40,792 nt of DNA from positions 1-40,792 of the forward strand of contig NZ_LITT01000019.1 of assembly GCF_001636845.1 (NCBI RefSeq), given 5' to 3'. Shown piece by piece: positions 5,553-40,266 of this stretch (the stretch's first letter is position 1; every line of letters starts with the position of its first letter). The position numbers were made by a program, and so were the translations under genes. This DNA comes from Clostridium ljungdahlii (GTDB lineage: Bacteria > Bacillota > Clostridia > Clostridiales > Clostridiaceae). Under the pieces are notes generated by a model. The model saw nothing but the letters and a program-made list of their open reading frames with translations. It was not told the origin of the DNA and did not search any database.

Positions 5553-6524
5553 ATGAGCTTTGACGGAAGTAGGAGAGAATACTTATATTCGATTTATATA
5601 AAGAAGAACCCGACAGAGTTGTCTGAAAAAATAGGAATAATCTTAAGTGAAAATGATATTATGTTAGAACGTGTTTATGTTGATAAAAATTTTAAGAGAC
5701 GAGTTGATATAAGTGCTGCAGAAAAAGAAAAACAATTATTTTGCGAGATGCAGTTGACAAAATCCGATGAAATACACTATAGGCAAATTGTAGAATTAAT
5801 AAGTTTGGCAAAAAATGATAAAAGTACATTAATAGCTTGGATAGCTACAGAATTTACAGATAAGTATATAACAGAATTAAAGCAATTAATTATTACGAAT
5901 TCTAAAAAAAACATCGAATTACTATTTCTAATTATTAATAAAGATGTTATTAAGCAGCTTGTAGAAATAAATAAATGCAACAAATATAAACAGATAGAAA
6001 TGCTTAAACAACTAAATAATATTAAGGAACATTTTTTATTAATTAGTAGTATAAAAAACTATTATAATGTAAGTAAAGTAAATAGTGTAAAAGATGATAT
6101 TAAGGTCATGTCGTATAAACAAAAAATTTTGATAAAAATTTGCAAAAGACTGAGACAGGATTGTAGTAATCAAGGTAATGTTTATCAATATAAGGATGTT
6201 ACAGGAAATTGCTTTATTATGGGAACGGGATATGGTGGAATAGACTATAAAGTTATGGCAGATAGAAGAAATCGCATTGGCATTGTTTTGGCATTTAATA
6301 ACATAAAAAGTAAAAAAGCCTATTACAAGTTAAAGACAAAGCGTGAAAAGATTGATGACGAGTTTGATTTTATGCTGGATTGGAATGATGAATATAATCA
6401 AATAGCTACATTCTTAGCACTTGGATGGTTTAATGATAAAGAAAAAATAATTTTGATATTTTGTAGAATTGTTAAGCGATATCTATACTGCTTTGATAAA
6501 TATTTAGAAGAAGTTTTAAAATAA
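5553..6524 (+). CDS. Possible PD-(D/E)xK-fold protein, function unknown
   Basis: A 323-aa protein I do not recognise by name. The first 90 residues contain RRVDIS (D52) followed by FCEMQL (E65-x-Q67) and a helix with HYRQIVELISLA. This matches the D...(E/D)x(K/Q) core of nuclease-fold domains that use Gln in place of Lys. The C-terminal part (about 185-323) carries an aromatic-rich domain with GGIDYKVMAD and FLALGWFND. The ATG at 5553 is chosen over 5538 because GGAGGAG lies 6 nt upstream. It sits among defence genes and could be a restriction factor, but this is inference. A strong terminator follows. Confidence 0.5.
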   Translation: MSFDGSRREYLYSIYIKKNPTELSEKIGIILSENDIMLERVYVDKNFKRRVDISAAEKEKQLFCEMQLTKSDEIHYRQIVELISLAKNDKSTLIAWIATEFTDKYITELKQLIITNSKKNIELLFLIINKDVIKQLVEINKCNKYKQIEMLKQLNNIKEHFLLISSIKNYYNVSKVNSVKDDIKVMSYKQKILIKICKRLRQDCSNQGNVYQYKDVTGNCFIMGTGYGGIDYKVMADRRNRIGIVLAFNNIKSKKAYYKLKTKREKIDDEFDFMLDWNDEYNQIATFLALGWFNDKEKIILIFCRIVKRYLYCFDKYLEEVLK

Positions 6525-6529
6525 TATTT

Positions 6530-6587
6530 AAAAAGTATATAAAATAAAAATCAGTATATACGCTGATTTTTATTTTATATACTTTTT
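6530..6587. terminator. Strong 25-bp perfect hairpin terminator
   Basis: Two perfectly complementary 25-nt arms (6530-6554 and 6563-6587) with an 8-nt loop, A-rich on the left and T-rich on the right. A diverged copy (10195-10250) precedes the second CWB2 gene, so it belongs to the duplicated unit. Confidence 0.8.
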
Positions 6588-6757
6588 TGTGTATTATAAG
6601 ATACATTTTGTAAGAAAAAAGTATAAAATAAAATGTTTTTTACAAATTCGACAGAAAAATACAAAACATTTATTAAATCAATGCTATAATTTAGTTAAAT
6701 AGGAAATAAATTTTTAATAAAATACTAATTAATATAATAATTGAATAGGGGGACATT

Positions 6758-8074
6758 ATGAAAAAACCATTAAATAAGAACATTTTAATAGCTATATCAT
6801 TTTTAGTTGTTGGAATATTAATCAGTTTTAATTCAAAGGTGAGTGCTGATGCAACACCAACAATAACAAGAATAAATGGAAGTAATGTATATGATACAGG
6901 CATTAAGGTAAGTCAGAAAGGATGGACAACCTCAGATAATGTTATTTTGGCAAGTTCAGCAGATTTTCCTGATGCATTATCTGGTACATCTTTAGGTATA
7001 AAAGTTGATGCACCAATACTTTTCACAGACACAAACACTTTTAGTGATAATACTTTAGCCGAAATAATCAGGTTAAAAGTAAAAAATGTTTACATCCTTG
7101 GGGGTACTTCTTCAATATCACAAGCAGTGGAGGATGAAATTAAAAGCAAAGGTCTAACAGTAGAAAGACTTGGAGGGTCAGATAGGTTTGCTACAGCAGT
7201 ACAAGTTGGAAAGGCTGTTGAGAAAATAGGCAATTCTAAAACTGTATTTTTAGCTAATGCATATAACTATCCTGATGCTCTTTCAGGCTCAACCTTTGCA
7301 GGAAAAACAGGAAGTCCTATACTTCTGACAGATGGTAATTCTCTTAACGAACAAAGCAAGCAAGCTTTAAAGGACTGGGGAATTGAACATGTAAATATAC
7401 TGGGAGGGGAATTCGTTATGTCTTCCAATATATTGAATGAGCTTGTGGATATGGGCATCACTGTTAATCGTTTTGGTGGAACTGATAGATACCAGACTTC
7501 TCAAGCAATGGTTAATAATTTTGCTTCTTCTACAGAAGGGCTTACTTTGGCAACAGGAAAGGATTTCCACAATGCTCTTGTAGCTTCTGTATTGGCAGGT
7601 AAAATGAATTACCCTCTAACATTAATGGACAATGACTGTAGTTCAACAGAAAAAAGTTTTGTTGAAAATAAAAATCTTATAATTGTTGGAGACTATGGTT
7701 TAACTGTAGATGAACCAGGTTATACTGGCAGTCAAATAAAACAAAAGTTATATAGTTTAGGTTTCTTTGATAAAAGAGGAGGCATGGCTTTAAATAAGTA
7801 TGGTTCGCAAGGAGTAGATGAGTATGATGGTGTAACTTATTCCACATATCACGATAGCAGAGATATAAATATATCAATTTATGCAAGCAATTCAGAAATA
7901 GATACAAAAATACACACCATGTTAAATTGGATACTTCCTACTAAAGGAGATACTTTATTTTCTATATTAGAGAATCCCAATTTGAACTCTCAAACTCTTG
8001 AATTGGATGGAAGAACTATTTCCATAACGGTTCAGCCTGCTTTTATAAGTATAAATTTTGGACCAATTAAGTAA
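6758..8074 (+). CDS. Exported CWB2-repeat cell-wall protein (copy 1)
   Basis: A 438-aa surface protein. A signal peptide (KK at 2-3, hydrophobic core about 9-24, VSA|D site near residue 30) is followed by three CWB2 repeats at about 35-305. These are recognisable from ILASSADFPDALSG, ILGGTSSIS and VERLGGSDRFATA and their later variants; CWB2 repeats anchor proteins non-covalently to clostridial cell-wall polymers. The C-terminal 115 residues are a different, unrecognised domain beginning around GYTGSQIKQKLYSLGF. GGGGGAC precedes the ATG. A close paralogue lies 3.7 kb downstream with the same flanking hairpins, so the gene was duplicated with its control region. The C-terminal domain has diverged most, suggesting it carries the specific function. 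Confidence 0.88.
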   Translation: MKKPLNKNILIAISFLVVGILISFNSKVSADATPTITRINGSNVYDTGIKVSQKGWTTSDNVILASSADFPDALSGTSLGIKVDAPILFTDTNTFSDNTLAEIIRLKVKNVYILGGTSSISQAVEDEIKSKGLTVERLGGSDRFATAVQVGKAVEKIGNSKTVFLANAYNYPDALSGSTFAGKTGSPILLTDGNSLNEQSKQALKDWGIEHVNILGGEFVMSSNILNELVDMGITVNRFGGTDRYQTSQAMVNNFASSTEGLTLATGKDFHNALVASVLAGKMNYPLTLMDNDCSSTEKSFVENKNLIIVGDYGLTVDEPGYTGSQIKQKLYSLGFFDKRGGMALNKYGSQGVDEYDGVTYSTYHDSRDINISIYASNSEIDTKIHTMLNWILPTKGDTLFSILENPNLNSQTLELDGRTISITVQPAFISINFGPIK

Positions 8075-8078
8075 AGCT

Positions 8079-8122
8079 AAAGATATTAGTTTTAGAATTA
8101 ATTCTTAACTAATATCTTTTTC
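8079..8122 (+). terminator. Terminator of CWB2 copy 1
   Basis: A 13-bp stem AAAGATATTAGTT / AACTAATATCTTT followed by further T residues. Confidence 0.65.
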
Positions 8123-8210
8123 TTATTAGTATTATTATTGTATATAACTACTTTAATTAAAAATATATAGATGATTTTAAGGTAGATTAGTTAAATTTTA
8201 TAACATAATC

Positions 8211-10152: not shown

Positions 10153-10194
10153 TATTAGTAAACTGATTGTTTTTAAAAATCTAAATAATATTTG

Positions 10195-10252
10195 AAAAGT
10201 ATATAAAATGGAAAACAGTGTATATGCTGATTATCATTTTATATACTTTTTT
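10195..10252. terminator. Hairpin terminator, diverged copy of the one at 6530
   Basis: A perfect 16-bp outer stem (10195-10210 with 10235-10250) plus a CAG/CTG inner pairing, ending in T6. It terminates the Fic gene and marks the left edge of duplicate copy 2. Confidence 0.75.
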
Positions 10253-10422
10253 GCGCATTATAAGATATATTTTGTAAGAAAAGAGTATAAATTAAAATGT
10301 TTTTTACAAATCCGACAGAAAAATATAAAATATTTATTAAATCAATGTTATAATTTAGTTAAATAGGAAGCGAATTTTTAATAAAATATTAATTAATATA
10401 ATAATTTAATAGGGGGGACATT

Positions 10423-11754
10423 ATGAAAAAATTATTAAATAAGAACATTTTAATAGCTATATCAATTTTGATTGTTGGAATATTAATCGGTTTCAATACA
10501 AAGGTGAGTGCTGATTCAACGCCAACAGTAACAAGAATAAATGGAAGTGATGTATACGATACAGGTATTAAGGTAAGTCAGAAAGGATGGACAACCTCAG
10601 ACAATGTTATTTTGGCAAGTTCAGCAGATTTCCCTGATGCACTGTCTGGTACATCCTTAGGTATAAAGATTGATGCACCAATACTCTTCACAGAAACAAA
10701 CACTCTTAGTGATAATACTTTAGCCGAAATAATCAGGTTAAAAGCAAAAAATGTTTATATCCTTGGGGGTACTTCTTCAGTATCACAAGCAGTAGAGGAT
10801 AAAGTTAAAAGTCAGGGCTTAACTGTAGAAAGACTTGGAGGGTTAGATAGATTTGCTACGGCAGTACAAGTTGGAAAGGCTGTTGAGAAAATAAGCAATT
10901 CCAAAACTGCATTTTTAGCTAATGCATATAACTATCCTGATGCTCTTTCAGCATCAACCTTTGCAGGAAAAACAGGAAGTCCTATACTGCTTACAAATGA
11001 GAATTCCCTTAATGAACAAACCAAGCAAGCTTTAAAGGATTGGGGAATTCAGCGAGTAAATATACTGGGAGGGGAATTCGTTATGTCTTCCAATATATAT
11101 AATGAACTTTTGGATATGGGTGTAACTGTTAGTCGCTTTGGTGGAGCTGATAGATACCAGACTTCTCAAGCAATAGTTAATAATTTTGATTCTTCTACAG
11201 AAGGACTTACTTTGGCAACAGGAAAGGATTTTCACAACGCTCTTGTAGCTTCTGTATTGGCAGGCAAAATGAATTACCCTCTAACATTAATAGATAATGA
11301 TTGTAGTTCAACAGAAAAAAGTTTTGTTGAAAATAAAAATCTTATAATTGTTGGAGATTATGGTTTAGCTATAGATACACCAGTTGTAGATGCACCAGGT
11401 CATACTGGTAATCAGATAAAGCAAAAATTATATAGTTTAGGATTTGTTGATAAATATCCTAATGTAGTTTTAAATAGATATGGTTCAAAGGTGTTAGATG
11501 ACTGGGATGCAGTTTCGTATGGTGTAGGTTCTGGAGATGTTGATATGGGACTTGGAATTATGGCAAGTAATCCAGAAATAGATGCTAAAATACATACCAT
11601 CTTAAATTGGATACTTCCAACTCAGGGAGATACTTTATTTTCTATATTACAAAATCCTAATTTAAAATCTCAGACTATTGAACTGGATGGCAGAACAATA
11701 ACTATAAAAGTTGAACAAACTTTTATAAGTATTCTTTTTAGTCCAATTAAATAA
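10423..11754 (+). CDS. Exported CWB2-repeat cell-wall protein (copy 2)
   Basis: A 443-aa paralogue of the protein at 6758, nearly collinear. It has a signal peptide ending VSA|D near residue 30, three CWB2 repeats to about residue 305 (DFPDALSG, ILGGTSSVS, VERLGGLDRFATA), and a C-terminal domain starting near GHTGNQIKQKLYSLGF. It is slightly longer because of a few inserted residues at the repeat/C-terminal junction. The upstream 200 bp match those of copy 1, so both copies probably share regulation. The C-terminal domain differs clearly (for example GSGDVDMGLGIMASN instead of a SRDINISIYASN-type stretch). Wall location is by CWB2 binding; ligand unknown. Confidence 0.88.
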   Translation: MKKLLNKNILIAISILIVGILIGFNTKVSADSTPTVTRINGSDVYDTGIKVSQKGWTTSDNVILASSADFPDALSGTSLGIKIDAPILFTETNTLSDNTLAEIIRLKAKNVYILGGTSSVSQAVEDKVKSQGLTVERLGGLDRFATAVQVGKAVEKISNSKTAFLANAYNYPDALSASTFAGKTGSPILLTNENSLNEQTKQALKDWGIQRVNILGGEFVMSSNIYNELLDMGVTVSRFGGADRYQTSQAIVNNFDSSTEGLTLATGKDFHNALVASVLAGKMNYPLTLIDNDCSSTEKSFVENKNLIIVGDYGLAIDTPVVDAPGHTGNQIKQKLYSLGFVDKYPNVVLNRYGSKVLDDWDAVSYGVGSGDVDMGLGIMASNPEIDAKIHTILNWILPTQGDTLFSILQNPNLKSQTIELDGRTITIKVEQTFISILFSPIK

Positions 11755-11761
11755 AAATTAG

Positions 11762-11804
11762 AGATATTAGTTTTAGGAATAATCCTTGACTAATATCTTT
11801 TTTT
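11762..11804 (+). terminator. Terminator of CWB2 copy 2
   Basis: A stem AGATATTAGT / ACTAATATCT followed by a T7 run; homologous to the terminator at 8079. Confidence 0.7.
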
Positions 11805-11929
11805 ATTTAATTTTTCTAACTTGGTATTTATATAAATATGGTATTAATAAAGCTTTTAGAGTAAGTAAAATGATACAACGTTAGGAAATTTGGTTAATAA
11901 TAAAAAAGAAGTTTTAGAGAGGTATATAA

Positions 11930-25122: not shown

Positions 25123-26502
25123 ATGGCAGTGAAAAAAGTTAGAGCAGGACTTGATTCAGATAAGAAAGAACAAATAACAGAGAATAATGAGAATGAAGTT
25201 AAGAATGAAAAGTTAAGATGTAGAAGTGGATATAAGATGACTGAATTAGGTGAGGTACCAGAAGAGTGGGAAATTAGGAAGTTTGGTGATGTTCTTTCAT
25301 TTATGAAGAGCGGGTTATCAAGAAATCTAAAGGAAGAGGATGTTGGAATTCCTTGTATAAGGTCTAATAACATGGTAAACGGAAAAATTGATAAAGCTGA
25401 TTTAAAATATTGGTTCTTAAAAGATGATAAAGGTGCCAATATTGATGATTATGTATTAGATGATGGCGATATATTAGTGAACTTTATTAATAGTATAGCT
25501 CAAATTGGAAAAACATGTATTTATAGAAATATTGGTAGAAAATCAATTTACACAACTAATATATTTAGAATTAAGGTTAATACACAGTTAGTAGATAATA
25601 AGTTTTTTTATTATTATACTCAAACTAATAAATATAACATGGATATAGGGTTAATAACTAAACCAGCAGTAAATCAAGCAAGTTTTACATCGGTAGATTT
25701 TAAAAACATAATAATACCTATCCCTTCTATTAAGGAACAACAAAAAATCTCATTAATCATATCCTCCGTAGATGAGCAAATAGAAATAAGTGATAATCTT
25801 ATAGAAAAAACGAAGAAACTTAAAAAAGGGCTTATGCAGAAGCTTTTTACAAAAGGAATTGGACACAGCAGATTTAAGAATACGGAGATTGGGAGAATAC
25901 CAGAAGAATGGAGTTCTGAATGTAGCTTTATAAATATAAAATCAGGTTTTGGGTTTAAATTAAATGAATATGTTGAAAATGGAATACCATTAATTAGAAT
26001 TAATAATGTTATGTACGGTAAGATTACAGATGAAGATTTATGCTTTCTACCACAAACATATTTAGAAGAATATAAAGAATTTGTACTTAAAAAAGGAGAT
26101 ATATTAGTAGCTTTGAATAGACCAGTTACAAATAATCAGCTAAAAATTGGTAAAGTGGTAAATGAACCTGCGATTTTATATCAAAGAGTTGGTAGATTAG
26201 AAATGGATTTAGAAAAATATAATCCGAATTTTTATTTCCAATATTTGCAGAGTGACTATTTTATAAATATATTGACAAGTTCACTTGTAGGTTCTGACCA
26301 ACCATATATAAAAACTTCTGAATTCTCAAAAATATATTTTCCAGTACCAACATTTGAAGAACAACAAAAAATATCATCAATTCTATCCTCTGTAGACGAA
26401 CAGATAGACCAATATGAAGCTAAAAAAGAAAAACTACAAGAACTAAAAAAAGGACTTATGCAGAAACTCTTGACAGGAAAAATCAGAGTGAAAGTTTGTT
26501 AA
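25123..26502 (+). CDS. hsdS: Type I restriction-modification specificity subunit
   Basis: A 459-aa HsdS with two target-recognition domains, each preceded by the typical entry motif (TELGEVPEEWE near residue 40, TEIGRIPEEW near 260). Each ends in a helical spacer with EEQQKIS...VDEQI and LKKGLMQKL. It recognises a bipartite DNA site and bridges HsdM and HsdR. The first 30 residues are an additional charged extension. ATG at 25123 is preferred over GTG at 25120. Both domains and both conserved repeats are intact. Short tandem repeats follow the stop. Confidence 0.93.
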   Translation: MAVKKVRAGLDSDKKEQITENNENEVKNEKLRCRSGYKMTELGEVPEEWEIRKFGDVLSFMKSGLSRNLKEEDVGIPCIRSNNMVNGKIDKADLKYWFLKDDKGANIDDYVLDDGDILVNFINSIAQIGKTCIYRNIGRKSIYTTNIFRIKVNTQLVDNKFFYYYTQTNKYNMDIGLITKPAVNQASFTSVDFKNIIIPIPSIKEQQKISLIISSVDEQIEISDNLIEKTKKLKKGLMQKLFTKGIGHSRFKNTEIGRIPEEWSSECSFINIKSGFGFKLNEYVENGIPLIRINNVMYGKITDEDLCFLPQTYLEEYKEFVLKKGDILVALNRPVTNNQLKIGKVVNEPAILYQRVGRLEMDLEKYNPNFYFQYLQSDYFINILTSSLVGSDQPYIKTSEFSKIYFPVPTFEEQQKISSILSSVDEQIDQYEAKKEKLQELKKGLMQKLLTGKIRVKVC

Positions 26503-26616
26503 GTGACAAATGACAAGAGATAAGTGACAAAGTAAGAGTGATAAGTGACAAGTTAAAAATCAATGGTAAAAAGTATAACTTGAAACTTAAAACTTGTCAC
26601 TTGAAATTTGTCACTA
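26501..26616. repeat. Degenerate short repeats before hsdR
   Basis: The hsdS-hsdR junction contains several variants of AAGTGACAA/GATAAGTGACAAG, ending with the inverted form (AACTTGTCACTTG), so the stretch can also fold. The same motif recurs as a cleaner tandem array after hsdR. Confidence 0.6.
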
Positions 26617-29600: not shown

Positions 29601-29834
29601 ATTATAGAATTGTCTAAAAGTATAGCCGTAGATGTGCGTAAAGTAGTAGTAGATAATTATGTGGTGGACTGGACAAATAATCAGACTAAAACTTCTGACA
29701 TAGAGAGGGCTATATTTATGCTACTTAACAAGAAGTATTTTAAGCAGATACCACTTAAAAGTAGAAGGAATATGATACAACCTTTATTAAACTTAGCTAA
29801 AAAACACTATTCGATAGTAGCAAGTGATAAGTGA
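26637..29834 (+). CDS. hsdR: Type I restriction enzyme translocase/endonuclease subunit
   Basis: A 1065-aa HsdR. The N-terminal nuclease core has FPDIVVFVNGIP and ILECKSP (PD...ExK, about residues 147-166). The SF2 motor has HTQGSGKSLTM (about 318-328), SDEAHRSQY (about 438-446) and TGFTGTP; a helical C-terminal domain binds the M/S core. It translocates DNA with ATP and cleaves unmodified DNA at a distance. The ATG at 26637 is chosen because GGGGGGTG precedes it. An in-frame upstream ATG at 26538 would translate the repeat region. The last codons fall into the downstream tandem repeat, which supplies the stop. Confidence 0.95.
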   Translation: MPNLGNEETLVELPAIKYIKDILNYDFIHGKELIPENGERDSLTEVILVKRLGNALKRLNPWIDEGNLRKAVRFLNRPENLGTSLLEINEKLYDAIVDLNYTVDQDIYGNGQKKPQTVHFIDWDSVDNNDFLVTRQFEVKTQFGKSIFPDIVVFVNGIPVVILECKSPFLEKAKNENIGKKEAFEQLKRYMNERDINVVEGNPRLFYTNFFTGILNKYHAYVGTISSKYNHYLEWKDPYPFSKDNVKDVDDFGQNLFIQGLLEKKNLLDIMRNFLIFETDNNVTVKKIARYQQFRAVNKAIHRLKSGKDSLSRGGVVWHTQGSGKSLTMVMLARKIKRTNELSDATIVVITDRIDLDKQIYGTFLRTLSKITTPERADKISVMKELLSKAQPKIIMTTIQKFESEAEEKEVVENAIKVRKKFAKPYEVLTTKSNVIVLSDEAHRSQYKDTAANMRTALPNATFIGFTGTPIDKQDKSTPRTFGGYIDKYGIKEAVDDGATVKIVYEGRRPELHIKGESLDKLFDEAFEDKSDEEKEAIKQKYANKKAIIENDDRINDIAVDILKHYRDNIMPNGFKAQIVCASREACVKYYNALKKHMKEIIGEDLGVKVIFSGKLNDLTHLKEHFTTKAEQEAIISRFKQPIEKDKLCFIIVKDMLLTGFDAPIEQVMYLDRPLKEHNLLQAIARVNRTCTMNINRKLDDNEIKKESIVKQCGYVVDYYGVSDYLEEALDIFDKEDLGEPMQSMEDLYKEMLSYREDVMNMFKGKDKNNLDELIKGLEPQDKRAEFEIGYKRFSGAVEALLPSHAGTDILNDVKWLGYIRAGAKAKYSPQEELDISDCGEKVRKIIEEHLKSLGVIQWIEPITLFEDDFKTKINTLKSDEAQASAMEHAVKHAISVKMDDNPVFYTSLLEKLQKILDETKNDWIERKKKLEEFIEREVEKGTKSQSENLGLDEKEYAFFEVVKKYIESEEHRDDVVKEEAEIYISNEIIELSKSIAVDVRKVVVDNYVVDWTNNQTKTSDIERAIFMLLNKKYFKQIPLKSRRNMIQPLLNLAKKHYSIVASDK

Positions 29835-29890
29835 CAAGTGATAAGTGACAAGTGATAAGTGACAAGTGAGAAGCGGCGAGCTGCAAGTTA
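29818..29890. repeat. Tandem 14-bp repeats overlapping the end of hsdR
   Basis: About three head-to-tail copies of a unit close to ATAAGTGACAAGTG, followed by a degenerate tail (AAGCGGCGAGCTGCAAGTTAG). The first copy contains the hsdR stop codon. It is related to the repeats at 26501-26616 and, more weakly, to the sequence after hsdM. Confidence 0.75.
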
Positions 29891-29917
29891 GAAGTTAAGG
29901 GGATTGATGTTTGAATT

Positions 29918-30790: not shown

Positions 30791-31081
30791 TTAGAATAAA
30801 TCATTAATTAAGGATTTGTCATCTTCTGTAAGTGAATTTATTACATCATTATTTGTAATTACTGGAGAATTATTATTTGAAGAATAGTTATTTTCTTTTA
30901 GAACTTTCTTTATAATCTCTTCAATTTTACCTTCAAACTCTGGATTTAGGATATCTTTATTATTCATTTTAGACCGTATAAGTTGGCAGATGTAGTTACT
31001 TATATTATCCTTTGTTTTTAAATAATCATATATATCTTTATTACATTTGGAAAAACTGATAGATAATTTCTTAGTTAGCAT
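30791..31081 (-). CDS. parR: ParR-like partition adaptor
   Basis: A 96-aa protein immediately downstream of, and overlapping by 11 bp, the ParM-like gene, the usual place of the DNA-binding adaptor. The N-terminal strand-helix-helix (KKLSISFSKCNKDIYDYLKT, then NISNYICQLIRSK) fits a ribbon-helix-helix fold that binds the centromere. The acidic, disordered C-terminus (about 75-96) would contact the filament. AGAGGT precedes its ATG. Family membership rests on context plus the N-terminal pattern. Confidence 0.7.
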   Translation of the reverse strand: MLTKKLSISFSKCNKDIYDYLKTKDNISNYICQLIRSKMNNKDILNPEFEGKIEEIIKKVLKENNYSSNNNSPVITNNDVINSLTEDDKSLINDLF

Positions 31082-32051
31082 GTTTTACCTCTAAAATATT
31101 TAAGAAAGATAAACAATTAGAAAATTGACCATCTTCTTCTATTGTTGCAAGCGGATATTGATTGAGTATATAATCCTTTAAGAGCAATGCCCCACCTCCA
31201 CAGAATACAAGATTCATATTATTAAATGTCAAACCTCTGCTTCTGCCATAATTAAATATTTCAGATATATGATTAATAATTAAATTTTGAATAACTTTTT
31301 TGCTTTCTATTTTCTTTATACCTGATATATAAAGACATCCATCATTTTTTAATATCTCTTCTACATCATCATCGCTTACCAGTATTCCATATGTAGAGGT
31401 TAAGGTTTCAGCAATTTTTGACCTTAAAACATTGATACCAGAGTTAGAGATATTCATGCTATTTAATTCTGGAACTAATTTATTAAATGTGCAATAATTT
31501 ATGTTTAAAGAGCCTATGTCTATAACAGTAACTCTATTGTATTTAAAGTTATTTGTATGAGCATATAAACTTCCCATACCTTCTGGTAAAATTAGTAAAG
31601 AACTAATTTTAAATACATAGGTTGTTCCATTAACTTTCATCGAGATTATATTATTATTATTTTGCATAAACTTTTTATAATTTTCTTTTAATACATTGTT
31701 TTTATATCCATTAATGGGTATGTTTAGAGCTAAATCTATTTTAGGTAAACCATACTTTAAAGTGTCTGTCTTAGCAATTATTTTACAAATTGCAAGGTAT
31801 ACACTTAATTTGTGGTTTATTGTATGTTTTGTTATTTGGTAGTTGCAGGAGCTTTCGGAGACCATGTCGCCTATAAGGTAAGATTTTCCTTCAAACTGAA
31901 CTAAATATGAGTTTGATGTTATGTCTACACCTAAATCAGAAATTTCTTTAATCTTAGTTCTAAAAATAACTTTTTCAATTTTATTTCTCATTTTAATTAT
32001 TGCTTTTGTTGCAGATTTGCCAGAATCCACTGCTATTAATAATTCTTTCAT
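31071..32051 (-). CDS. parM: ParM/Alp-like actin-family plasmid segregation ATPase
   Basis: A 326-aa actin-like protein. Phosphate loop 1 is AVDSGKSATKA (residues 7-17), phosphate loop 2 is VTVIDIGSLNINY (about 170-182), and the adenosine motif is LVFCGGGALLL (about 281-291). Such proteins polymerise with ATP and push sister plasmids apart through the ParR-centromere complex. It is typical length for a divergent clostridial Alp/ParM. AGGAGG precedes the ATG. The gene pair is strong evidence that this DNA is, or was, a low-copy plasmid. Confidence 0.88.
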   Translation of the reverse strand: MKELLIAVDSGKSATKAIIKMRNKIEKVIFRTKIKEISDLGVDITSNSYLVQFEGKSYLIGDMVSESSCNYQITKHTINHKLSVYLAICKIIAKTDTLKYGLPKIDLALNIPINGYKNNVLKENYKKFMQNNNNIISMKVNGTTYVFKISSLLILPEGMGSLYAHTNNFKYNRVTVIDIGSLNINYCTFNKLVPELNSMNISNSGINVLRSKIAETLTSTYGILVSDDDVEEILKNDGCLYISGIKKIESKKVIQNLIINHISEIFNYGRSRGLTFNNMNLVFCGGGALLLKDYILNQYPLATIEEDGQFSNCLSFLNILEVKHAN

Positions 32052-33032: not shown

Positions 33033-33079
33033 TTTATCAACTTCCAATCCATGCTAATATAAAGATTTATAATTAAATA

Positions 33080-33290
33080 ACAAAAATATAAACCCTACTT
33101 ATTGTTTTAAATAAAAAATAAGAAAGGGTTTATATTTTTTACACACATATTCACACACAACGTATTCTTAAAGGTTAGATTTTCCTAACTTAATATTTAT
33201 TATATCAGAATTCTATTAATAAATCACGCTCAATATAGTCAATATTGTGTAAAACTGAGAGTCTTTCAGATTGAGTATTTAATTGTGGCA
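33080..33290. repeat. Long direct repeat, copy A (left part)
   Basis: About 200 bp recognisably matching 38054-38245. It opens with a 15-bp hairpin (33082-33096 with 33125-33139), then CACACAC, ATTCTTAAAGGTTAGATTTTCCTAACTT, and a stretch through TCAATATAGTCAATATT. After about 33290 copy A carries about 450 bp that copy B lacks, then resumes at about 33738 with the tRNA-like block. Confidence 0.75.
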
Positions 33291-33737
33291 CTGACTTACC
33301 ATATGAAGATGTAATTAATTTGTAGTATAGAAAAAGTATAGGATTATACAGATGCCTTTTGACTTAAAAAATATAAGTGTAATGAAAATAAAGAAGAAAT
33401 AGCATGTTATAAATTGCAAAAACAATAAAAAAAGATTATAATGAATGGATACAAATTACTGTAATTAAGCTATATTATAGTAATTAAATCAAGTGAAATA
33501 CTAAATATTGATGTTAAAAATTTTAATTTAAGATTTAAATACTATTAATAATATCGTTTGCCCAGGTCGTAGGTTCGATTCCTGCACTCCCTACGTTCAT
33601 AATCATAAGTATTTGTGCTATTAAGCAACTTAGTGATGCTACAGTTAAAATTACTATTGGTAACTTAATTGCAACTTGCAAGGAAGAATACGGAAGGATA
33701 TGGTGCGTTATGAATATTATATTTACAATTATAGCTC
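33291..33737. other. Segment present only in repeat copy A
   Basis: About 450 bp with no supported gene apart from the tRNA-3'-half-like fragment. It interrupts copy A relative to copy B. A frame open for about 58 codons ends in the tRNA-like block but lacks a start and ribosome site. Confidence 0.45.
33557..33594 (+). tRNA. tRNA 3'-half-like fragment (not a complete tRNA)
   Basis: GTAGG-TTCGATT-CCTGC forms a canonical 5-bp T stem and 7-nt T loop. It is followed by ACTCCCT, which can pair with the 7-nt GGGGAGT that begins the tRNA-5'-half-like block 190 bp downstream, and then A. The preceding bases include TTTGCCCAGG, which could be an anticodon-arm remnant. No 5' half lies upstream, so this is a fragment, attachment-site relic or permuted half. 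Confidence 0.5.
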
Positions 33738-33750
33738 TATGTGGCGTTTG

Positions 33751-33843
33751 CGGGGAGTTAGCTCAGAGGTAGAGCATGTGATAAAGTAAATCAGCATAGA
33801 GCTGAATCAAAATACAGCACCTAAGTGAAATGGTGCTTTTTTT
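33751..33843 (+). ncRNA. tRNA-5'-half-like small RNA with terminator (copy A)
   Basis: GGGGAGT-TA-GCTC-AGAGGTA-GAGC has the acceptor strand, two-base linker, D stem and D loop of a tRNA. Next comes ATGTGAT, a 7-nt loop AAAGTAA, then ATCAGCAT: a 7-bp stem with one bulged G in place of an anticodon arm. AGAGCT follows and can compete for the D stem. The end is an intrinsic terminator, GCACC...GGTGC-T7 (33817-33843). A second copy at 38261 keeps all helices, with compensating changes in the terminator. No T arm or acceptor 3' strand follows, so it is not an ordinary tRNA. Confidence 0.6.
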
Positions 33844-34143
33844 ATACGCATAATTATATATTAGAATTTAAATTTGTAAAATATATCATTATGTATTATT
33901 TGGTTATACATAAATAAGTAGATAAGATTATTGGGTAAAATAGTTCAAGGAATTTTAAAATTAGGATTTGTTAGACTAAAGTAGGGATAAACAGTACTCA
34001 CATACTTGTAAATTTAGTCGTGTGAGGTTATCCATAACGTAGAATAATATAATTTTTTAATCATTTGATTAAAAAAAATAATAAAAAATTAAGAAAGGTA
34101 GAGTTTGCGAATTTTATTATTTTCGCAATTAGGTAAATAAAAT

Positions 34144-34857
34144 ATGATTTTTTATAGAGGAATAACAGTTGAACCAATTAAAGCAAATAAAATTATTGAA
34201 CATATAAAAACAAATGGAATTACAGGTGAGGAAGCAGTTTCTTATTCTGTCCACGATGTAAAAGGCAATATATCAACTCTTTTAAATAATTCTAATCTTA
34301 ATTTAGAAATGACCAGACCTTCGAGAGTTATTCATACTAAGGATGGTCTTTATAGAGAATATATAGATTCTAATAATTGTGTTTGTTGTTCAAGTGATAT
34401 AAATACCGCAAGATATTATGCAAACATACACAACAAAAGTAAGATTAATACAAAACCATTGATAATCAAGTTTGAAATGCCTATATCAGAAGTATACATA
34501 GACGGAAGAGATTTTCTTCATTATGCATTTGGCAAAGATGACATAAATAAGGTTCTTCCAATACTCGAAGATTTATATGGTTCTAATATTATAGACTATT
34601 ATAAAAGAGCAATTACGAAAAAAGATATACAATATAGAGCTGCTATTGTAGACCTTGTTTGTCAAGATGAAAGTATTATTACTGACCATTATAATAATGA
34701 TAAGTGTATAAAAGGTAGATATAATACAGAGTTTAAATCGGCGTTTATGGTAAAAGCCCCTATACCTCCAAACAATATTATTGAAATATTACAGGAGGAA
34801 TATCTACAACCTAACACCATAGCTTATAGCATATCAGACTTATATAAGCTATGTTAA
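34144..34857 (+). CDS. Unrecognised protein with weak ADP-ribosyltransferase-like motifs
   Basis: A 237-aa protein. It opens MIFYRGITVE (Y-R-G, the place of the first-strand Arg in ADP-ribosyltransferase folds). It later has CCSSDINTARYYANIH (about residues 80-95), resembling the S-T-S strand and following helix of that fold, and then IIKFEMPISEVYIDGRDF. No definite catalytic Glu motif is evident, so the comparison is tentative. The ribosome site before the ATG is weak. It is the first gene of the repeat-bounded cassette. If an ADP-ribosyltransferase, it would be a toxin or defence effector; otherwise the function is unknown. Confidence 0.5.
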   Translation: MIFYRGITVEPIKANKIIEHIKTNGITGEEAVSYSVHDVKGNISTLLNNSNLNLEMTRPSRVIHTKDGLYREYIDSNNCVCCSSDINTARYYANIHNKSKINTKPLIIKFEMPISEVYIDGRDFLHYAFGKDDINKVLPILEDLYGSNIIDYYKRAITKKDIQYRAAIVDLVCQDESIITDHYNNDKCIKGRYNTEFKSAFMVKAPIPPNNIIEILQEEYLQPNTIAYSISDLYKLC

Positions 34858-35077
34858 TAATAATAAGGATATGTCCATTATAAAGTGTGTTATATATTTT
34901 TAAAAAAGAATTTTAAGCTTGTAAGAAAAGCAATGGATGAAGAAAATGGTAGCCTTAAATTAAGAAATGTTTATAAAATAGGATAAGAGGAAAACTATTT
35001 TTATAAAGAATAAACTGGAATAATAAAGATAAGTGATTTTATAAGAGTTGAACTAAAAATACAAGATATAGGTGGGA

Positions 35078-35938
35078 ATGATTTTGAATATTATTCAGTT
35101 ATTAAGAATGGATAGATTTGATACAAATAAAAAAACAATGCTGATTAGGCATACAAGTGGAGAAGTTTATGACATTAATGAGATTTATGAAAATGGGGAA
35201 CTGCTAAATTATCAAAGTGTTCAATCACAGGATGTTTTTAAAGATATTCAATATATAGTAGCGTTTATAGCCACAAGAGGTACGAAAGCTAAATTTGTTG
35301 GAATATATGAAATAATTAGAAAATCTAAAGTTAAAGATGAAAAAGGGACAACTAAATTTGTAGAAAATTTAGGAATAGAAAACTTCTATACAGATAATAA
35401 GTTTTATTATGAACAAAAAGAAACAACTTATCTTTCAGATTTAAAAGATAGATTGATAATTGAGTGGGGAAAAGGAACTGTTAAGTGGCACCAGAAATTA
35501 CGGAAAAAAGAGGTGGTTGAAATATTACCAAAGGGTTATTATGACAATTTTCCAGGATTTGAAAACATTATTTTAAAGTATAATGAATTAAAGAAAATTA
35601 TAAATAACCCAGATGCTAATAAAGAGTGGCACACAATGTTATCGTCGGTAGCGGGAATTTATTTGATTTTAGATAGATTAACTGGTAAGCAATATATTGG
35701 CTCAGCATATGGAAAGGAAGGTATTTTAGGACGTTGGAAAGAGTATTGTAAAAATGCAGATGGAGGTGATAAAGTATTATTGAAATTGTTAAAAAATAAT
35801 CCTAATTATAGTAAAAACTTTCAATATTCTATACTAAGAACACTATCCAAAACTATTACTGAGAAGGAAGCAATTTCTATAGAAGCAATTTACAAAAAAA
35901 AATTAGGCAGTAAAGCATTTGGACTAAATTTAAATTGA
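35078..35938 (+). CDS. GIY-YIG nuclease with an N-terminal domain of unknown function
   Basis: An approximately 286-aa protein. The C-terminal domain (about 190-286) is a GIY-YIG nuclease: AGIYLILDRLTGKQYIGSA, then GILGRWKEY with the catalytic Arg, and a Glu-containing helix (KEAISIEAIYKKKLG). The N-terminal about 185 residues form an unrecognised domain with DIQYIVAFIATRGTKAKFVG, likely a target- or nucleic-acid-recognition module. GGTGGG lies just upstream; the GTG at 35072, ATG at 35078 and TTG at 35084 are all possible starts. The intact nuclease motif and neighbours of unknown function suggest a restriction-type role. It is 44 bp upstream of the next gene. Confidence 0.78.
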   Translation: MILNIIQLLRMDRFDTNKKTMLIRHTSGEVYDINEIYENGELLNYQSVQSQDVFKDIQYIVAFIATRGTKAKFVGIYEIIRKSKVKDEKGTTKFVENLGIENFYTDNKFYYEQKETTYLSDLKDRLIIEWGKGTVKWHQKLRKKEVVEILPKGYYDNFPGFENIILKYNELKKIINNPDANKEWHTMLSSVAGIYLILDRLTGKQYIGSAYGKEGILGRWKEYCKNADGGDKVLLKLLKNNPNYSKNFQYSILRTLSKTITEKEAISIEAIYKKKLGSKAFGLNLN

Positions 35939-35982
35939 AAATATATAATTATAAAAAGTATAGTAGAAAAGGATAGAATAAA

Positions 35983-37443
35983 ATGAATTTTAGAGATTTG
36001 GTAGAAAAAATATATAAAAATAAAGAAAGTGAAGTAAATAAAAAAGGCATAGAAGATGCAGATAGGACAAAGTTTAGTAAAAAAAGTATAAAAAAGAGAC
36101 TTGAAAAAATTTATAATAATTTAGAAGATAAAGATAATTTCCTTAGCAGATTTCCGATACAAATATATAACGAAGAGATAAAACTTAAATTAATAGAGTA
36201 TATATTTAATAAAATTGAATGTTGTGGACAAAGACAAATAATTCATAATATAAACAGAAAGATATTAGGCAAAGGCAAAAAAACTACCATAGATATAGAT
36301 TATAAGAAGTTTTATAGCTATTATAAAGATAGTGACAATAGTAATGATGAAAATGCATACTTAAGCTCATATGAAAGGTTTATTAATATTAATAGAGGAG
36401 TGATTAGATTAAACCACAATATAATTGATAAAATAAATGAAGTAATTTTTTATAATTCTCAAGTATATAAAGAAATTAGAACTGAAAACAATATACTTAA
36501 AGCAATGGGAATTAAGAAAACGAGACAAAATGCGTTAAATGAAGTAAAAGCATATACTAAGTTAATATATGATTCATGGATACAAGCTTTAATATACATA
36601 ATCATAACTAATAAAGAGATTCTTAATAAAAATGATATTATAGATGAACTATTAACTCTACAAAATAACATGGTTGAACGATTAAAAGAAGTAGAGAAAG
36701 AAAATATCAACAAATATTCAAAAATGCAATTCAATAAGGAAGACGAGAAACTTATATTTGATTATGCAATAGAAAGATTTGATATATTTGTTATGTGGAT
36801 GGAAGAAAGTAGTTATTGTACAGAGTATGTTGATATTTTAAAAAATTTAGAAAAAGAGATGAAGGAAAATCAAGATATGTTTAGACCTATAAAGAAAGAA
36901 TTTGAAACAACTAAACATATGAGAATAGCAGATAGTGATAAATTGAAAAATATTATTTGCGAAGGACAAAAAGTTTATCAGTATAAACAAAAACTTGAAG
37001 AGACAAAAAAAGCTATTAATATTTTTAAGAAATATGGCGGACGTAATATTGATGAAAAAAACGTTCGAGACTTAAAGGTGTTTTTTAGGGAAATCTACAT
37101 GAATGATAATAAATATAGTAAGAGGTCAAAAAAAGCAATTGGGATAATGAGAGACTATTATGCTCAGTTAGATTCAAAAAAAATTGAAGTGGAAGTATTT
37201 GAAAAAAACTTAGATTATATTTTTATTAGGGAGAAAATAAACAGAGGTTTTTTTAGAGAAAATGATTTAAGTTACGTATATATATTGAAAAATGAAATAC
37301 AAAAAAATGCTATTAATTTATTTTTAGAATTATATAAGTTATATGATGAAACGTTAATTCTTGAATGGTGTAATAGACTAAATAGTATTTTATTTAACAA
37401 TTTAATTTGTTTACTTAATGAAAAAGCAAAATTTTTAGTATAG
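35983..37443 (+). CDS. Large helical protein of unknown function
   Basis: A 486-aa Lys/Glu/Asn-rich protein that I do not recognise. It is predicted mostly alpha-helical with coiled-coil-like stretches (about 195-245 and 300-365). AAGGATAG precedes the ATG by 7 nt, and it follows the GIY-YIG gene by 44 bp on the same strand, so the two are probably co-transcribed. No membrane segment or enzymatic motif is apparent. Size and context suit a recognition or scaffold partner for the nuclease; this is inference from position only. Confidence 0.6.
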   Translation: MNFRDLVEKIYKNKESEVNKKGIEDADRTKFSKKSIKKRLEKIYNNLEDKDNFLSRFPIQIYNEEIKLKLIEYIFNKIECCGQRQIIHNINRKILGKGKKTTIDIDYKKFYSYYKDSDNSNDENAYLSSYERFININRGVIRLNHNIIDKINEVIFYNSQVYKEIRTENNILKAMGIKKTRQNALNEVKAYTKLIYDSWIQALIYIIITNKEILNKNDIIDELLTLQNNMVERLKEVEKENINKYSKMQFNKEDEKLIFDYAIERFDIFVMWMEESSYCTEYVDILKNLEKEMKENQDMFRPIKKEFETTKHMRIADSDKLKNIICEGQKVYQYKQKLEETKKAINIFKKYGGRNIDEKNVRDLKVFFREIYMNDNKYSKRSKKAIGIMRDYYAQLDSKKIEVEVFEKNLDYIFIREKINRGFFRENDLSYVYILKNEIQKNAINLFLELYKLYDETLILEWCNRLNSILFNNLICLLNEKAKFLV

Positions 37444-37571
37444 TTTTTTTGCAAAACTCATTCCTTAAAAGTTGTTTTAATTTAGGTATAATTTAATAAA
37501 ACATACCATGATTAGTATAGATGCAATATTTATAATAATTATAATTAAAATAAAAAGGGAGTGTTTGCATT

Positions 37572-37952
37572 ATGGAAATGTTAAAGGGAAGAATTGTTGA
37601 AATCGAAAAAAATGTTCATACAGGAGTTTATATAAAACAAGGAGTTAAGGAAAATAAACAGTATGAATATGAAAATAATCCTAAGACACCAGGAGGTAAT
37701 GGTACTTATGCAATTGGACACGAATACTACGGTACGACAATAGATGTCAAAGTATATGTTTATGACTTAGATAAATGTTTTTCTTGGGATATAAAAGATT
37801 ATATATTAGTAGTCAATAATAAAAAAAGAATTTCTGAAAAACTATTAAATTATGTTATTAAGAATAATAAAGGAAAAAAAGTAAAGTTGCAAATTGATGG
37901 ACAATATATTGGCTTTTACTATTCACAGTTGGAAGTTGCATGTAATTACTGA
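37572..37952 (+). CDS. Unrecognised 126-aa protein
   Basis: A beta-rich protein starting MEMLKGRIVEIEKN. The middle has ENNPKTPGGNGTYAIGHEYY and VYVYDLDKCFSWDIKDYI, and the end has KKVKLQIDGQYIGFYYSQL. GGGAG lies upstream of the ATG. It is small, soluble and without known motifs. It is the last gene of the repeat-bounded cassette. Immediately after its stop is GAATCCTGC-AGTTCCCC, which resembles the 3' end of a tRNA. Confidence 0.5.
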   Translation: MEMLKGRIVEIEKNVHTGVYIKQGVKENKQYEYENNPKTPGGNGTYAIGHEYYGTTIDVKVYVYDLDKCFSWDIKDYILVVNNKKRISEKLLNYVIKNNKGKKVKLQIDGQYIGFYYSQLEVACNY

Positions 37953-38053
37953 ATCCTGCAGTTCCCCAACAAAGCTTGATGTCATCTCCTCAGTGGTTAA
38001 GATTAATCCAAATCCTAAAACGAATAAAAAATTATAATTAAATATAGTAAATG

Positions 38054-38258
38054 ACAAAAATATAAACTCTACTTATTGTTTTAAATAAAGAATAAGAAAG
38101 GGTTTATACTTTTCACACACAAAAACATTCTTAAAGGTTAGATTTTCCTAACTTAATATTTATTATATCAGAATTTTATTAATAAATTACTCTCAATATA
38201 GTCAATATTATGTAAAATTAGGAATCTGTTAGATTGGTGTATTTAAGATGTGGTGTTT
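38054..38258. repeat. Long direct repeat, copy B
   Basis: Diverged copy of 33080-33290 continuing without interruption into the second tRNA-like block. The hairpin (38056-38070 with 38099-38113) is conserved with a compensating wobble. Copies A and B bracket the cassette at 34144-37952 in direct orientation. Confidence 0.75.
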
Positions 38259-38260
38259 GA

Positions 38261-38348
38261 GGGGAGTTAGTTCAACGGTAGAGCATGTGATAAAGTAAAT
38301 CAGCATAGAGCTAAAATCAAAATTATAGCATCTTTAAGATGCTTTTTT
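38261..38348 (+). ncRNA. tRNA-5'-half-like small RNA with terminator (copy B)
   Basis: GGGGAGT-TA-GTTC-AACGGTA-GAGC keeps the D stem through a G-T wobble. The bulged stem around loop AAAGTAA is identical to copy A. The terminator is GCATC...GATGC-T6: a C-G pair of copy A is replaced by T-A on both strands, evidence that pairing is under selection. The region between this RNA and the recombinase gene (38349-38505) shows no gene. Confidence 0.6.
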
Positions 38349-38505
38349 AATATACGTAATTAAAAAAATGCGTTGCCTATCTTCAACACAACATAATTGG
38401 AAATATGTTGTTTTAGAGGTGGTTTTGGTGATAAAATTTATATGTAAGTGATACATAATTACTATAAATAAGGTTAAATTTAAGTGCAACATAATTACAA
38501 GGAAG

Positions 38506-39369
38506 GTGGAGACAATATTCGATTTAGATAAATTTAAAAAATATCTTTTAAAAGAACGTAAAAGTGAAAACACTATAAAAAGTTATATCATTAACATAAA
38601 TGAATATATTAAGTGGTTTAATGATAGTTATGGATTAGAAGTTACAAAACTTTATAGAGAAAATGTATTAGATTATAAATCTTACTTATTAAATATTAAA
38701 AAGTTTAAAGGAAGGAATCTAAATGCAAGAACAATTAATGTAAAGTTAAGTTCATTAGTAGCTATAAATAAATTTTTAATAGAGGAAGGTATTCAGCAAG
38801 AATTAGTTATTAACAATAAAGATACAATAAAGGTACAACAGGAATATGCTAATCCATGCATAGTGGAGAAAAAAGATGTAGAAGCTTTTAGACAAAAAAT
38901 ATTAGAGGCAGGAGAAAAAAGGTTATATGCTTTAGCAACTTTAATGTCATATTCTGGATTAAGGATAACAGAGTCACTTAGCATAAAACTTGCGGATATA
39001 TGTTTGGAAGGGAAGGAAATTATCATCCGTAAAGGTAAAGGAAATAAGCAAAGGGTAGTTTATATAAATACTAAAATTGTTGAAGCATTAAAGGCTTACG
39101 TGAAAGTAAGAAGAGATGACAGTGAATTTTTATTTGTTTCCAGAGAAAGTAAAAATTTAAGTAGGTCAGTGGTTAATAGAGAGTTTAAAAAATATAGCAA
39201 TGTTATAACGCCTCATATGCTTAGGCACTATTACTGCAGCCATGCACTGGATATGGGATATTCTGTGGCTGAAGTCGCATATCAAGCGGGGCATAGAGAT
39301 ACAAGAACTACCCTTATCTATACAAATCCATCAAGGAAGAAGCTTAAAGAAATGGCAGAATTACTATAA
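38506..39369 (+). CDS. Tyrosine recombinase (XerC/D-like)
   Basis: A 287-aa site-specific recombinase. The N-terminal SAM-like DNA-binding domain has FKKYLLKERKSENTIKSY. The catalytic domain has SGLRITE (Arg, about residue 151), the RKGKGNKQR strand Lys, HMLRHYY (H-x-x-R), GHRDTRTT (His), and nucleophile Tyr272 in LIYTN. All key residues are present. It may resolve plasmid dimers or integrate the element; the tRNA-like fragments nearby would suit an attachment site. The GTG start is not firmly fixed, because AAGGA lies very close to it. Confidence 0.88.
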   Translation: METIFDLDKFKKYLLKERKSENTIKSYIININEYIKWFNDSYGLEVTKLYRENVLDYKSYLLNIKKFKGRNLNARTINVKLSSLVAINKFLIEEGIQQELVINNKDTIKVQQEYANPCIVEKKDVEAFRQKILEAGEKRLYALATLMSYSGLRITESLSIKLADICLEGKEIIIRKGKGNKQRVVYINTKIVEALKAYVKVRRDDSEFLFVSRESKNLSRSVVNREFKKYSNVITPHMLRHYYCSHALDMGYSVAEVAYQAGHRDTRTTLIYTNPSRKKLKEMAELL

Positions 39370-39549: not shown

Positions 39550-40266
39550 GTGAAACTATTGAGTTTAAAAGTAACAACATTTAGTAGCAAGGGAAGAGTT
39601 ACAAGGATATATGGATATAAAACTAAGAGAATTCATCATATTCAAAGTGATAATCAATTAAGGGTTTTTCTCATATTGGAATGGAATGAGAGTGTTAAGG
39701 ATATTGAGGAAAATGTAGAGCTTAAAGACTTGGAAATTATTATTAATGATGTAGAGAATTTAAGATTGGACAAATTTACAGATAAGGAAACAGGAAAGTT
39801 ATATCAGCTTCATACTAATTTTTTGGTGACGATTAAAAGAAGTAACATAGAAGAACAGGTTGCAATATCAGTTAAGGGCTTATCAGAACTTAAAAGAAAA
39901 ACTGTTATTGAAAAGATGGAAATTGAGAGAAGATATTGGAATAGTAAAGGAATATTATTTTATGTAGTGACGGAAAAGCAGATTGATAAACAATTTGTAG
40001 ATAATATTAAGTGGGTTAGAGAAACGTTAATGGATAGAGGTATAAAAGACAAAAGAGAATTAGCAGAAAGCTTATGCTATTTTTTACAAGAAAACAGAGA
40101 AAGAAAGCTGAATGAAGTTTTAGAAAAGTTTGATACTAATGTTGGAGCTAATGAGGGAACTGCTCTTTTTATCTTTAGGTATTTGATAGGAATAAAAGAG
40201 ATTGCAGTAGACATGGAGAAAAGTATCAATTTAGATGAAATAATTTCAATTTTGATAAAATTTTAG
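39550..40266 (+). CDS. tnsA: TnsA-like protein with altered catalytic residues
   Basis: A 238-aa protein collinear with the endonuclease subunit of Tn7-like transposons. The N-terminal nuclease domain has FLILEWNESVKDIEENVEL and ISVKGLSEL, followed by the characteristic VIEKMEIERRYWNSKGI and the C-terminal TnsA domain. In the family the nuclease uses Glu, Asp and Lys. Here the first position appears as Q36 (SDNQLRVF, where E is usual) and the second as N90 (HTNFLVT, usually TDFL); K109 is kept. Start GTG at 39550 or TTG at 39559. A tnsB stub follows. It may be a decayed transposon gene or a DNA-binding protein without cleavage activity. Confidence 0.8.
   Translation: MKLLSLKVTTFSSKGRVTRIYGYKTKRIHHIQSDNQLRVFLILEWNESVKDIEENVELKDLEIIINDVENLRLDKFTDKETGKLYQLHTNFLVTIKRSNIEEQVAISVKGLSELKRKTVIEKMEIERRYWNSKGILFYVVTEKQIDKQFVDNIKWVRETLMDRGIKDKRELAESLCYFLQENRERKLNEVLEKFDTNVGANEGTALFIFRYLIGIKEIAVDMEKSINLDEIISILIKF

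Follow-up and report, generated by a model that had tools for sequence, protein, structure and literature searches.

A candidate permuted tRNA-like RNA on apparent mobile DNA of clostridia

What kind of RNA would contain the 5' half of a tRNA, encoded twice on one contig and each time followed by a terminator? The question is raised by a 40,792-base stretch of Clostridium ljungdahlii DNA (hereafter the window), which is the whole of contig C20 (NZ_LITT01000019.1) of a 4.36-Mb draft genome. Two copies of a tRNA-5'-half-like element, at 33739–33806 and 38248–38315, are 91% identical over 68 nucleotides (nt). Each comprises the acceptor-like heptamer GGGGAGT, TA and a D arm, then the same bulged hairpin with the 7-nt loop AAAGTAA, and closes with an end resembling an intrinsic terminator. 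A first-pass annotation of the sequence described both copies correctly and took them for a tRNA mimic without T arm or 3' acceptor strand. For copy 1 that last point is wrong: both parts lie upstream, in permuted order.

The upstream part, hereafter the 3' half, contains the T arm GTAGG-TTCGATT-CCTGC and then ACTCCCT, which pairs at seven of seven positions (one of them G.U) with the GGGGAGT of copy 1. The resulting unit reads 3' half, 159 nt, 5' half, hairpin, terminator, and is thus circularly permuted. The 3' half is also kept in four other genomes (G046, G087, G070 and G112), which together with copy 1 give the five units compared here; three are close to copy 1 and G112 is the most divergent. 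The parts of the window unit are:

33557–33593, forward strand: tRNA 3' half, made up of the leader TTTGCCC, AGGTC, the T arm, the acceptor 3' strand and then A
33569–33585, forward strand: T arm, with stem 33569–33573/33581–33585 and loop TTCGATT at 33574–33580
33586–33592, forward strand: acceptor 3' strand ACTCCCT
33594–33751, forward strand: linker, giving 159 nt between the acceptor strands (156–159 in the five units)
33599–33772, forward strand: reading frame of 57 codons that stays open across the linker and stops at TAG in the D loop/D arm of the copy 1 5' half
33752–33775, forward strand: tRNA 5' half of copy 1, with acceptor 5' strand GGGGAGT at 33752–33758, TA, and D arm GCTC-AGAGGTA-GAGC at 33761–33775
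33776–33797, forward strand: hairpin ATG-TGAT-AAAGTAA-ATCA-G-CAT, where a tRNA would have its anticodon arm
33816–33843, forward strand: terminator-like stem AGCACC/GGTGCT with a T run

A scan for this permuted layout gave one match in the window and none in 500 dinucleotide-shuffled windows. The four homologous loci matched once each, and control loci totalling 75,989 bases had no match. The scan also gave 58 matches in overlapping host tRNA loci (L004–L033), because adjacent tRNA genes must produce the permuted motif. Around the five units the outer tRNA halves are absent: the preceding 90 nt contain no D arm and the following 130 nt no T arm. ARAGORN called no tRNA gene in the window or in the five units, and Rfam gave no hit at gathering thresholds in the window, T-box included.

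Acceptor, T and D arms occur in permuted order in all five units, apart from one T-stem mismatch in G046 and a mismatch at acceptor pair 1:72 in G070. None of the five has an anticodon stem-loop, CCA is not encoded, and the rejoined halves give no whole cloverleaf with an anticodon. The hairpin at the anticodon-arm place has both its strands on the 5' half; its loop measures 7, 8 and 7 nt in three units; in G070 and G112 it is shorter or different. Every unit could gain 2–4 leader/trailer pairs past 1:72, directly in G112 and after a mismatch in the other four. An outer stem of leader and trailer is part of the minimum folds of G112 and G070, is mismatched in the other three, and may stand in for an anticodon stem.

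Of the order, 225 genomes were searched and five had the unit, counting the genome of the window. With blastn, at least 147 of 206 genomes of the family gave a match at E ≤ 0.01; among the matches listed, only G087, G046 and G070 besides the window matched the 5'-half stretch at E < 1e-8, and the rest were short pieces. A model built from the units of the window, G087, G046 and G070 (R1) then found the fifth, G112, at 190 bits among the 225 genomes. A second model, R2, built from all five units, scored these at 263–314 bits, copy 2 at 56 bits and the remainder below 45 in the same genomes. Applied to 391 genomes of the class (E ≤ 1e-4) and 398 of the phylum (E ≤ 1e-6), sets that overlap that of the order, R2 matched only ordinary tRNA clusters besides the window. 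Weak model matches at L072–L093, L095, L096, L099–L103, L105, L109, L110 and L115–L117 fall in loci that hold ordinary tRNA genes; those at G084:C23:18730 and G081:C11 fell outside that check. Thirteen other genomes of the genus gave no match, and a 34-nt core had none in the genome contigs. Exact and degenerate patterns had no match in viral contigs, nor did the G046 unit in plasmid and phage records; a 161-nt window query matched 24–30-nt pieces in one plasmid and 13 phage records, partly annotated tRNA genes. A single parent tRNA was sought among 104 tRNAs and none emerged: the 5' half comes closest to Gly, Val or Thr types, whereas for the 3' half the nearest is tRNA-Met(cat) in copy 1 and G070 and tRNA-Ser in G112.

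Substitutions among the units fit the proposed pairing. Across all five rows, 6 of 28 pairs are changed on both sides, compared with a mean of 2.8 in shuffles and 0–3 in slid controls. Three of the six fall in tRNA-like stems, all in G112, where 1:72 is C-G, a T-stem A-U has become G-C and a D-stem G-C has become A-U; two fall in the hairpin, and one, from G070, in a further helix, P1, considered below. The two in the hairpin do not count, because the alignment is wrong at those columns, where 30% of cells are paired. Pair 1:72 is G.U in three units and A x A in G070.

An enforced fold, in which acceptor, T and D stems are imposed and only standard pairs allowed, is the minimum-energy fold in two of the five units (G112 and G070) and lies above the minimum by 0.6 kcal/mol in G087, by 2.4 kcal/mol in copy 1 and by 3.5 kcal/mol in G046. 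G112 folds better than 200 of 200 shuffles (z −3.35). If transcribed, the unit can adopt the fold of a tRNA upper half, with a 7-bp acceptor stem, a T arm with a TTCRA loop and a D arm with GG. Because of the layout, its chance control, this fold and the few but fitting substitutions, we think that the unit probably encodes a permuted tRNA-like RNA.

Signals for the ends of such a transcript are present in part. In four of the five units the D arm is followed, 36–39 nt on, by a terminator-like stem and its T run; the copy 1 stem, with a loop of 10, was missed by the terminator scan, whose loop limit was 8. G087 has an extended −10 promoter-like site before its 3' half.

Several observations weigh against a permuted RNA. 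The support from substitutions is narrow: it comes from five sequences of which three are close to copy 1, no pair is changed on both sides in the first four rows, and G112 alone supplies the three double changes in tRNA-like stems. The G046 fold is no better than its shuffles (z −1.10, 26/200), and the folds of the two window copies are ordinary by the same standard (z −1.21 and −0.44). The RNAalifold consensus of the five omits the acceptor stem and has an unfavourable covariation term (+0.6). It contains instead the competing helix P1, between GCUCUAUG in the linker and CAUAGAGC after the hairpin, with 95% of cells paired and one double change; in the window the linker end GCTCTATG (33734–33741) can pair with CATAGAGC (33795–33802). 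P1 and the acceptor stem could coexist only as a pseudoknot or as alternative states. The transcript ends are also uneven, since the sole terminator found in G070 lies 76 nt on and is shared with a convergent gene, promoter-like sites were not above shuffles in three regions scanned, and the regions scanned in copy 1 and G046 have none right before the 3' half. Finally, the linker is open in all five units, and therefore its conservation may be partly coding.

The best explanation of the whole, which we put forward tentatively, is that 33557–33843 is a gene for a structured tRNA-mimic RNA of about 300 nt belonging to clostridial mobile elements. The unit would be transcribed as one RNA from a start just upstream of the 3' half, and this RNA would offer a tRNA elbow and an acceptor-like helix whose end is closed by the linker. 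The mimic might then bind a factor that recognises tRNA, be it RNase P, RNase Z or EF-Tu, an enzyme of tRNA modification, the ribosome or a toxin that cuts tRNA, and such binding would benefit the mobile element. Judged from sequence, mimicry as the function is possible and distinctly more doubtful than the RNA itself.

How does such an RNA relate to known ones? It lacks an anticodon arm and an encoded CCA, and is therefore not a tRNA. Transfer-messenger RNA (tmRNA), like the units, has a tRNA-like elbow without an anticodon. It also has a G3.U70 pair and a stemless D loop, unlike the units, all five of which have G3-C70 and a 4-bp D stem. The tmRNA covariance models gave no match except to 18 nt of the G112 T arm, at 17.4 bits against a gathering score of 47, which was also the only relevant Rfam match in the units at permissive thresholds. 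Inspection of the trailers by eye showed no tag frame kept by all five. By the features tested, the RNA is not a tmRNA, and because the defining features of both classes are missing it is filed under neither.

Permutation itself has precedents. Circularly permuted tRNA genes occur in algae and archaea, with 1 to 74 bp between the acceptor strands; like the unit they consist of a 3' half, an intervening sequence and a 5' half, with complementary acceptor strands (PMC3978253). The unit differs in its bacterial hosts, in lacking an anticodon arm and in the 159 nt that separate its acceptor strands; it also carries a hairpin after the 5' half and, in four of five cases, a terminator-like site. A permuted two-piece tmRNA is found in some bacteria and also in phages, and resembles the unit in being permuted in the gene (PMC9004378). 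The jakobid mitochondrial tmRNA without an mRNA-like region is likewise reduced to its tRNA-like part; it is organellar, and we liken it to the unit by description only. Viral tRNA-like structures are another case of tRNA mimicry by a genetic parasite, although they reside in RNA virus genomes, whereas the unit is permuted and sits in bacterial mobile DNA (PMC5723415). We also considered raiA RNA, which is described with a different layout. Among the listed matches to literature searches on permuted tRNA in bacteria or plasmids, on tRNA-like RNA in Clostridium, and on permuted tmRNA and tRNA mimics in phages, titles and abstract openings mention no such RNA.

Could the permuted transcript be processed instead of remaining whole? 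RNase P and RNase Z (or 3' exonucleases) might cut at both acceptor ends, freeing the linker, possibly as a small mRNA, and leaving a two-piece tRNA-like body. The T loop, D loop and 7-bp acceptor stem are typical of substrates of these RNases, and the linker has its open frame. In two-piece tmRNA the pieces come in the same order as in the present unit. There, one precursor is split in two (PMC9004378). The gene order of the unit also agrees with that of permuted tRNA genes (PMC3978253). CCA, however, is not encoded, and every unit can form the 2–4 extra leader/trailer pairs past 1:72, after a mismatch in four; pairing that lengthens the acceptor stem is reported to inhibit formation of the RNase P complex (PMC9433436). 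We consider such a two-piece RNA unlikely.

Slightly less likely still is a relic with no RNA function, such as two neighbouring tRNA genes or a tRNA attachment site left behind on a mobile element. Use of tRNA genes by integrases is common, three of the loci have a tyrosine recombinase near the unit, and adjacent tRNA genes do yield the same permuted motif, as the 58 host matches illustrate. Against this origin, the outer halves are absent at all five loci, the linker keeps its length of 156–159 nt throughout and G112 has compensatory changes. In addition, the 31-nt 3' half, with up to three mismatches, matches only the window itself in the host draft genome (G000), in a search confined to that half and that genome.

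The open frame suggests a third alternative, a cis-acting leader. A linker peptide would end in the D arm, and the translating ribosome would switch between P1 plus the tRNA-like fold and the terminator, controlling the genes downstream. The frame spans 55–57 codons and ends with TAG in five of five units; in a neutral simulation from the consensus, all five were open in 0.25% of 20,000 runs (a rough figure, from a star tree). One strand of P1 lies inside the frame, and genes on the same strand lie downstream in the window, in G046, in G087 and, farther off, in G112. Yet the five frames share no start codon, the next gene in G070 is convergent, and linker changes by codon position (30/30/44, p 0.15) speak against coding. 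Three linker peptides tested had no Pfam or PHROG match. Aligned to the genome contigs, the linker peptide had three relatives among 154 pattern stretches, namely the G046, G070 and G112 loci; among 600 pattern stretches from viral contigs it had none. A leader of this kind is quite improbable. A decoy or RNA antitoxin against tRNA-cutting enzymes is very improbable: defence-like neighbours in the window and G087 would suit it, whereas there is no anticodon arm to cut, which makes a decoy for anticodon nucleases less likely, and the neighbours vary by locus, none being a demonstrated tRNA cutter.

What, then, is copy 2, if the permuted RNA is encoded at copy 1? The duplication in the window extends beyond the two copies as first described, taking in a block farther upstream:

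38261–38284, forward strand: tRNA 5' half of copy 2, with GGGGAGT, TA and D arm GTTC-AACGGTA-GAGC
38285–38306, forward strand: hairpin of copy 2, the same as in copy 1
38327–38348, forward strand: terminator of copy 2, AGCATCT/AGATGCT with a T run
33074–33273, forward strand: upstream duplicated block on the copy 1 side, with an inverted repeat at 33082–33139 and a 110-nt repeat
38048–38236, forward strand: second copy of this block, with the copy 2 5' half directly after it

At copy 1 about 465 bp, containing the 3' half and linker, separate the block from the 5' half; at copy 2 the two adjoin. The layout scan found no permuted motif at copy 2, which aligns to positions 192–250 of model R1 only, mainly the 5' half and hairpin, and whose fold favours another pairing. 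Copy 2 looks like a deletion derivative without the 3' half. In the simplest history a duplication would have been followed by loss of the 3' half and linker, leaving a partial duplicate; short TGTGGC repeats, seen in copy 1 near 33286 and 33741, may have been the sites of the deletion. The inverted repeats within the block (33082–33139 and 38056–38113) have 28-nt arms, 79% complementary at 33082–33139, and are terminator-like.

Copy 2 also bears on the first-pass claims. The 5'-half-only mimic proposed there does not describe the complete unit, which has T arm and acceptor stem; the incomplete one is copy 2. The D-stem change from GCTC to GTTC had been called compensating; with GAGC fixed it turns C-G into U.G, which is consistent with pairing and no more. 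The terminator change does include one true double change, as claimed, in a kind of stem that says little about selection on the RNA. From the two window copies, with their ordinary folds, selection on structure is not demonstrated. Homologues with some paired substitutions do exist: models R1 and R2 retrieve them, and G112 carries the changes. The first-pass picture of a structured tRNA-like element with a terminator, set beside possible defence genes, also stands, on DNA that carries a recombinase, TnsA and defence-like cargo (UzuA).

That setting suggests mobility. We take the window to be a plasmid or a similar element; it encodes a partition protein (31071–32051) as well as primase/helicase-like and exonuclease V-like proteins. 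A tyrosine recombinase lies at 38506–39366 and a TnsA endonuclease, assigned by family test, at 39550–40263 near the contig end, which probably truncates a Tn7-like element there. All five unit loci appear to sit on mobile DNA. In three of them (the window, G046 and G087, where TnsA was family-tested in each) TnsA and a tyrosine recombinase are near the unit and the cargo is unlike; it is defence-like in two, the window and G087. The units of G070 and G112, read by eye, seem to lie among phage genes.

The cargo appears to change while its surroundings stay. Between G046 and G087, conserved blocks comprise the upstream region (75%), the RNA (85%), the recombinase (78%) and one more block (67%), and the stretch from RNA to recombinase has no match. 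There G046 carries an LRAT-domain protein and a protein without Pfam match, and G087 a KAP NTPase that matches candidate defence family PDC-S49. In both genomes, repeats of the type TTGACTAT(C/G)TTCAAC precede the recombinase and also lie upstream of the RNA; those of G046 are exact and those of G087 partly degenerate. Their 8-mer, taken alone, occurs elsewhere too. Repeats of this type lie at:

38373–38410 of the window: TTGACTAT(C/G)TTCAAC-like repeats
9143 and 11077 of locus L065: the same
10510 and 7804 of locus L064: the same

Flanking RNA and cargo, these repeats are possible recombinase sites of an exchangeable cargo platform. Behind some of them come CAACATAATT..AATATGTTG near-palindromes.

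Other genes of these loci deserve mention. Between copies 1 and 2, the product of 35072–35938 matches the PADLOC model UzuA (E 1.1e-92), and its match to GIY-YIG falls slightly below the Pfam cut-off. Between recombinase and TnsA in G087, L064 5557–6897 has many PADLOC matches to kinase-type defence proteins (mad6 best, E 1.5e-29; PD-T4-6, E 3e-26). Directly upstream of the G112 RNA, L097 9116–9874 encodes a 252-aa protein with no Pfam, PADLOC or PHROG match, whose start may resemble that of PIN nucleases. Elsewhere in the window two similar long genes (6519–8133 and 10183–11814) are duplicated with their flanks about 3.66 kb apart, in blocks of at least 200 nt that are 81–92% identical. Short repeats of the AAGTGAYAAGTGACAAG type (26480–26587 and 29801–29901) stand at either end of a 1098-aa gene, by eye a putative type I restriction subunit.

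Taken at its widest, the unit may represent a new bacterial RNA class: a permuted tRNA mimic borne by mobile elements, which lacks an anticodon, has its acceptor stem capped by the linker and may have that linker translated, and which is fixed in a platform that exchanges anti-phage cargo beside a tyrosine recombinase and Tn7-like genes. We regard so broad a claim as conceivable and doubtful. A permuted tRNA-like RNA without anticodon on clostridial mobile DNA would itself mean that these elements evolve tRNA mimics in such a form, and would be a small molecule with which RNase P, RNase Z, EF-Tu or toxins that cut tRNA could be challenged.

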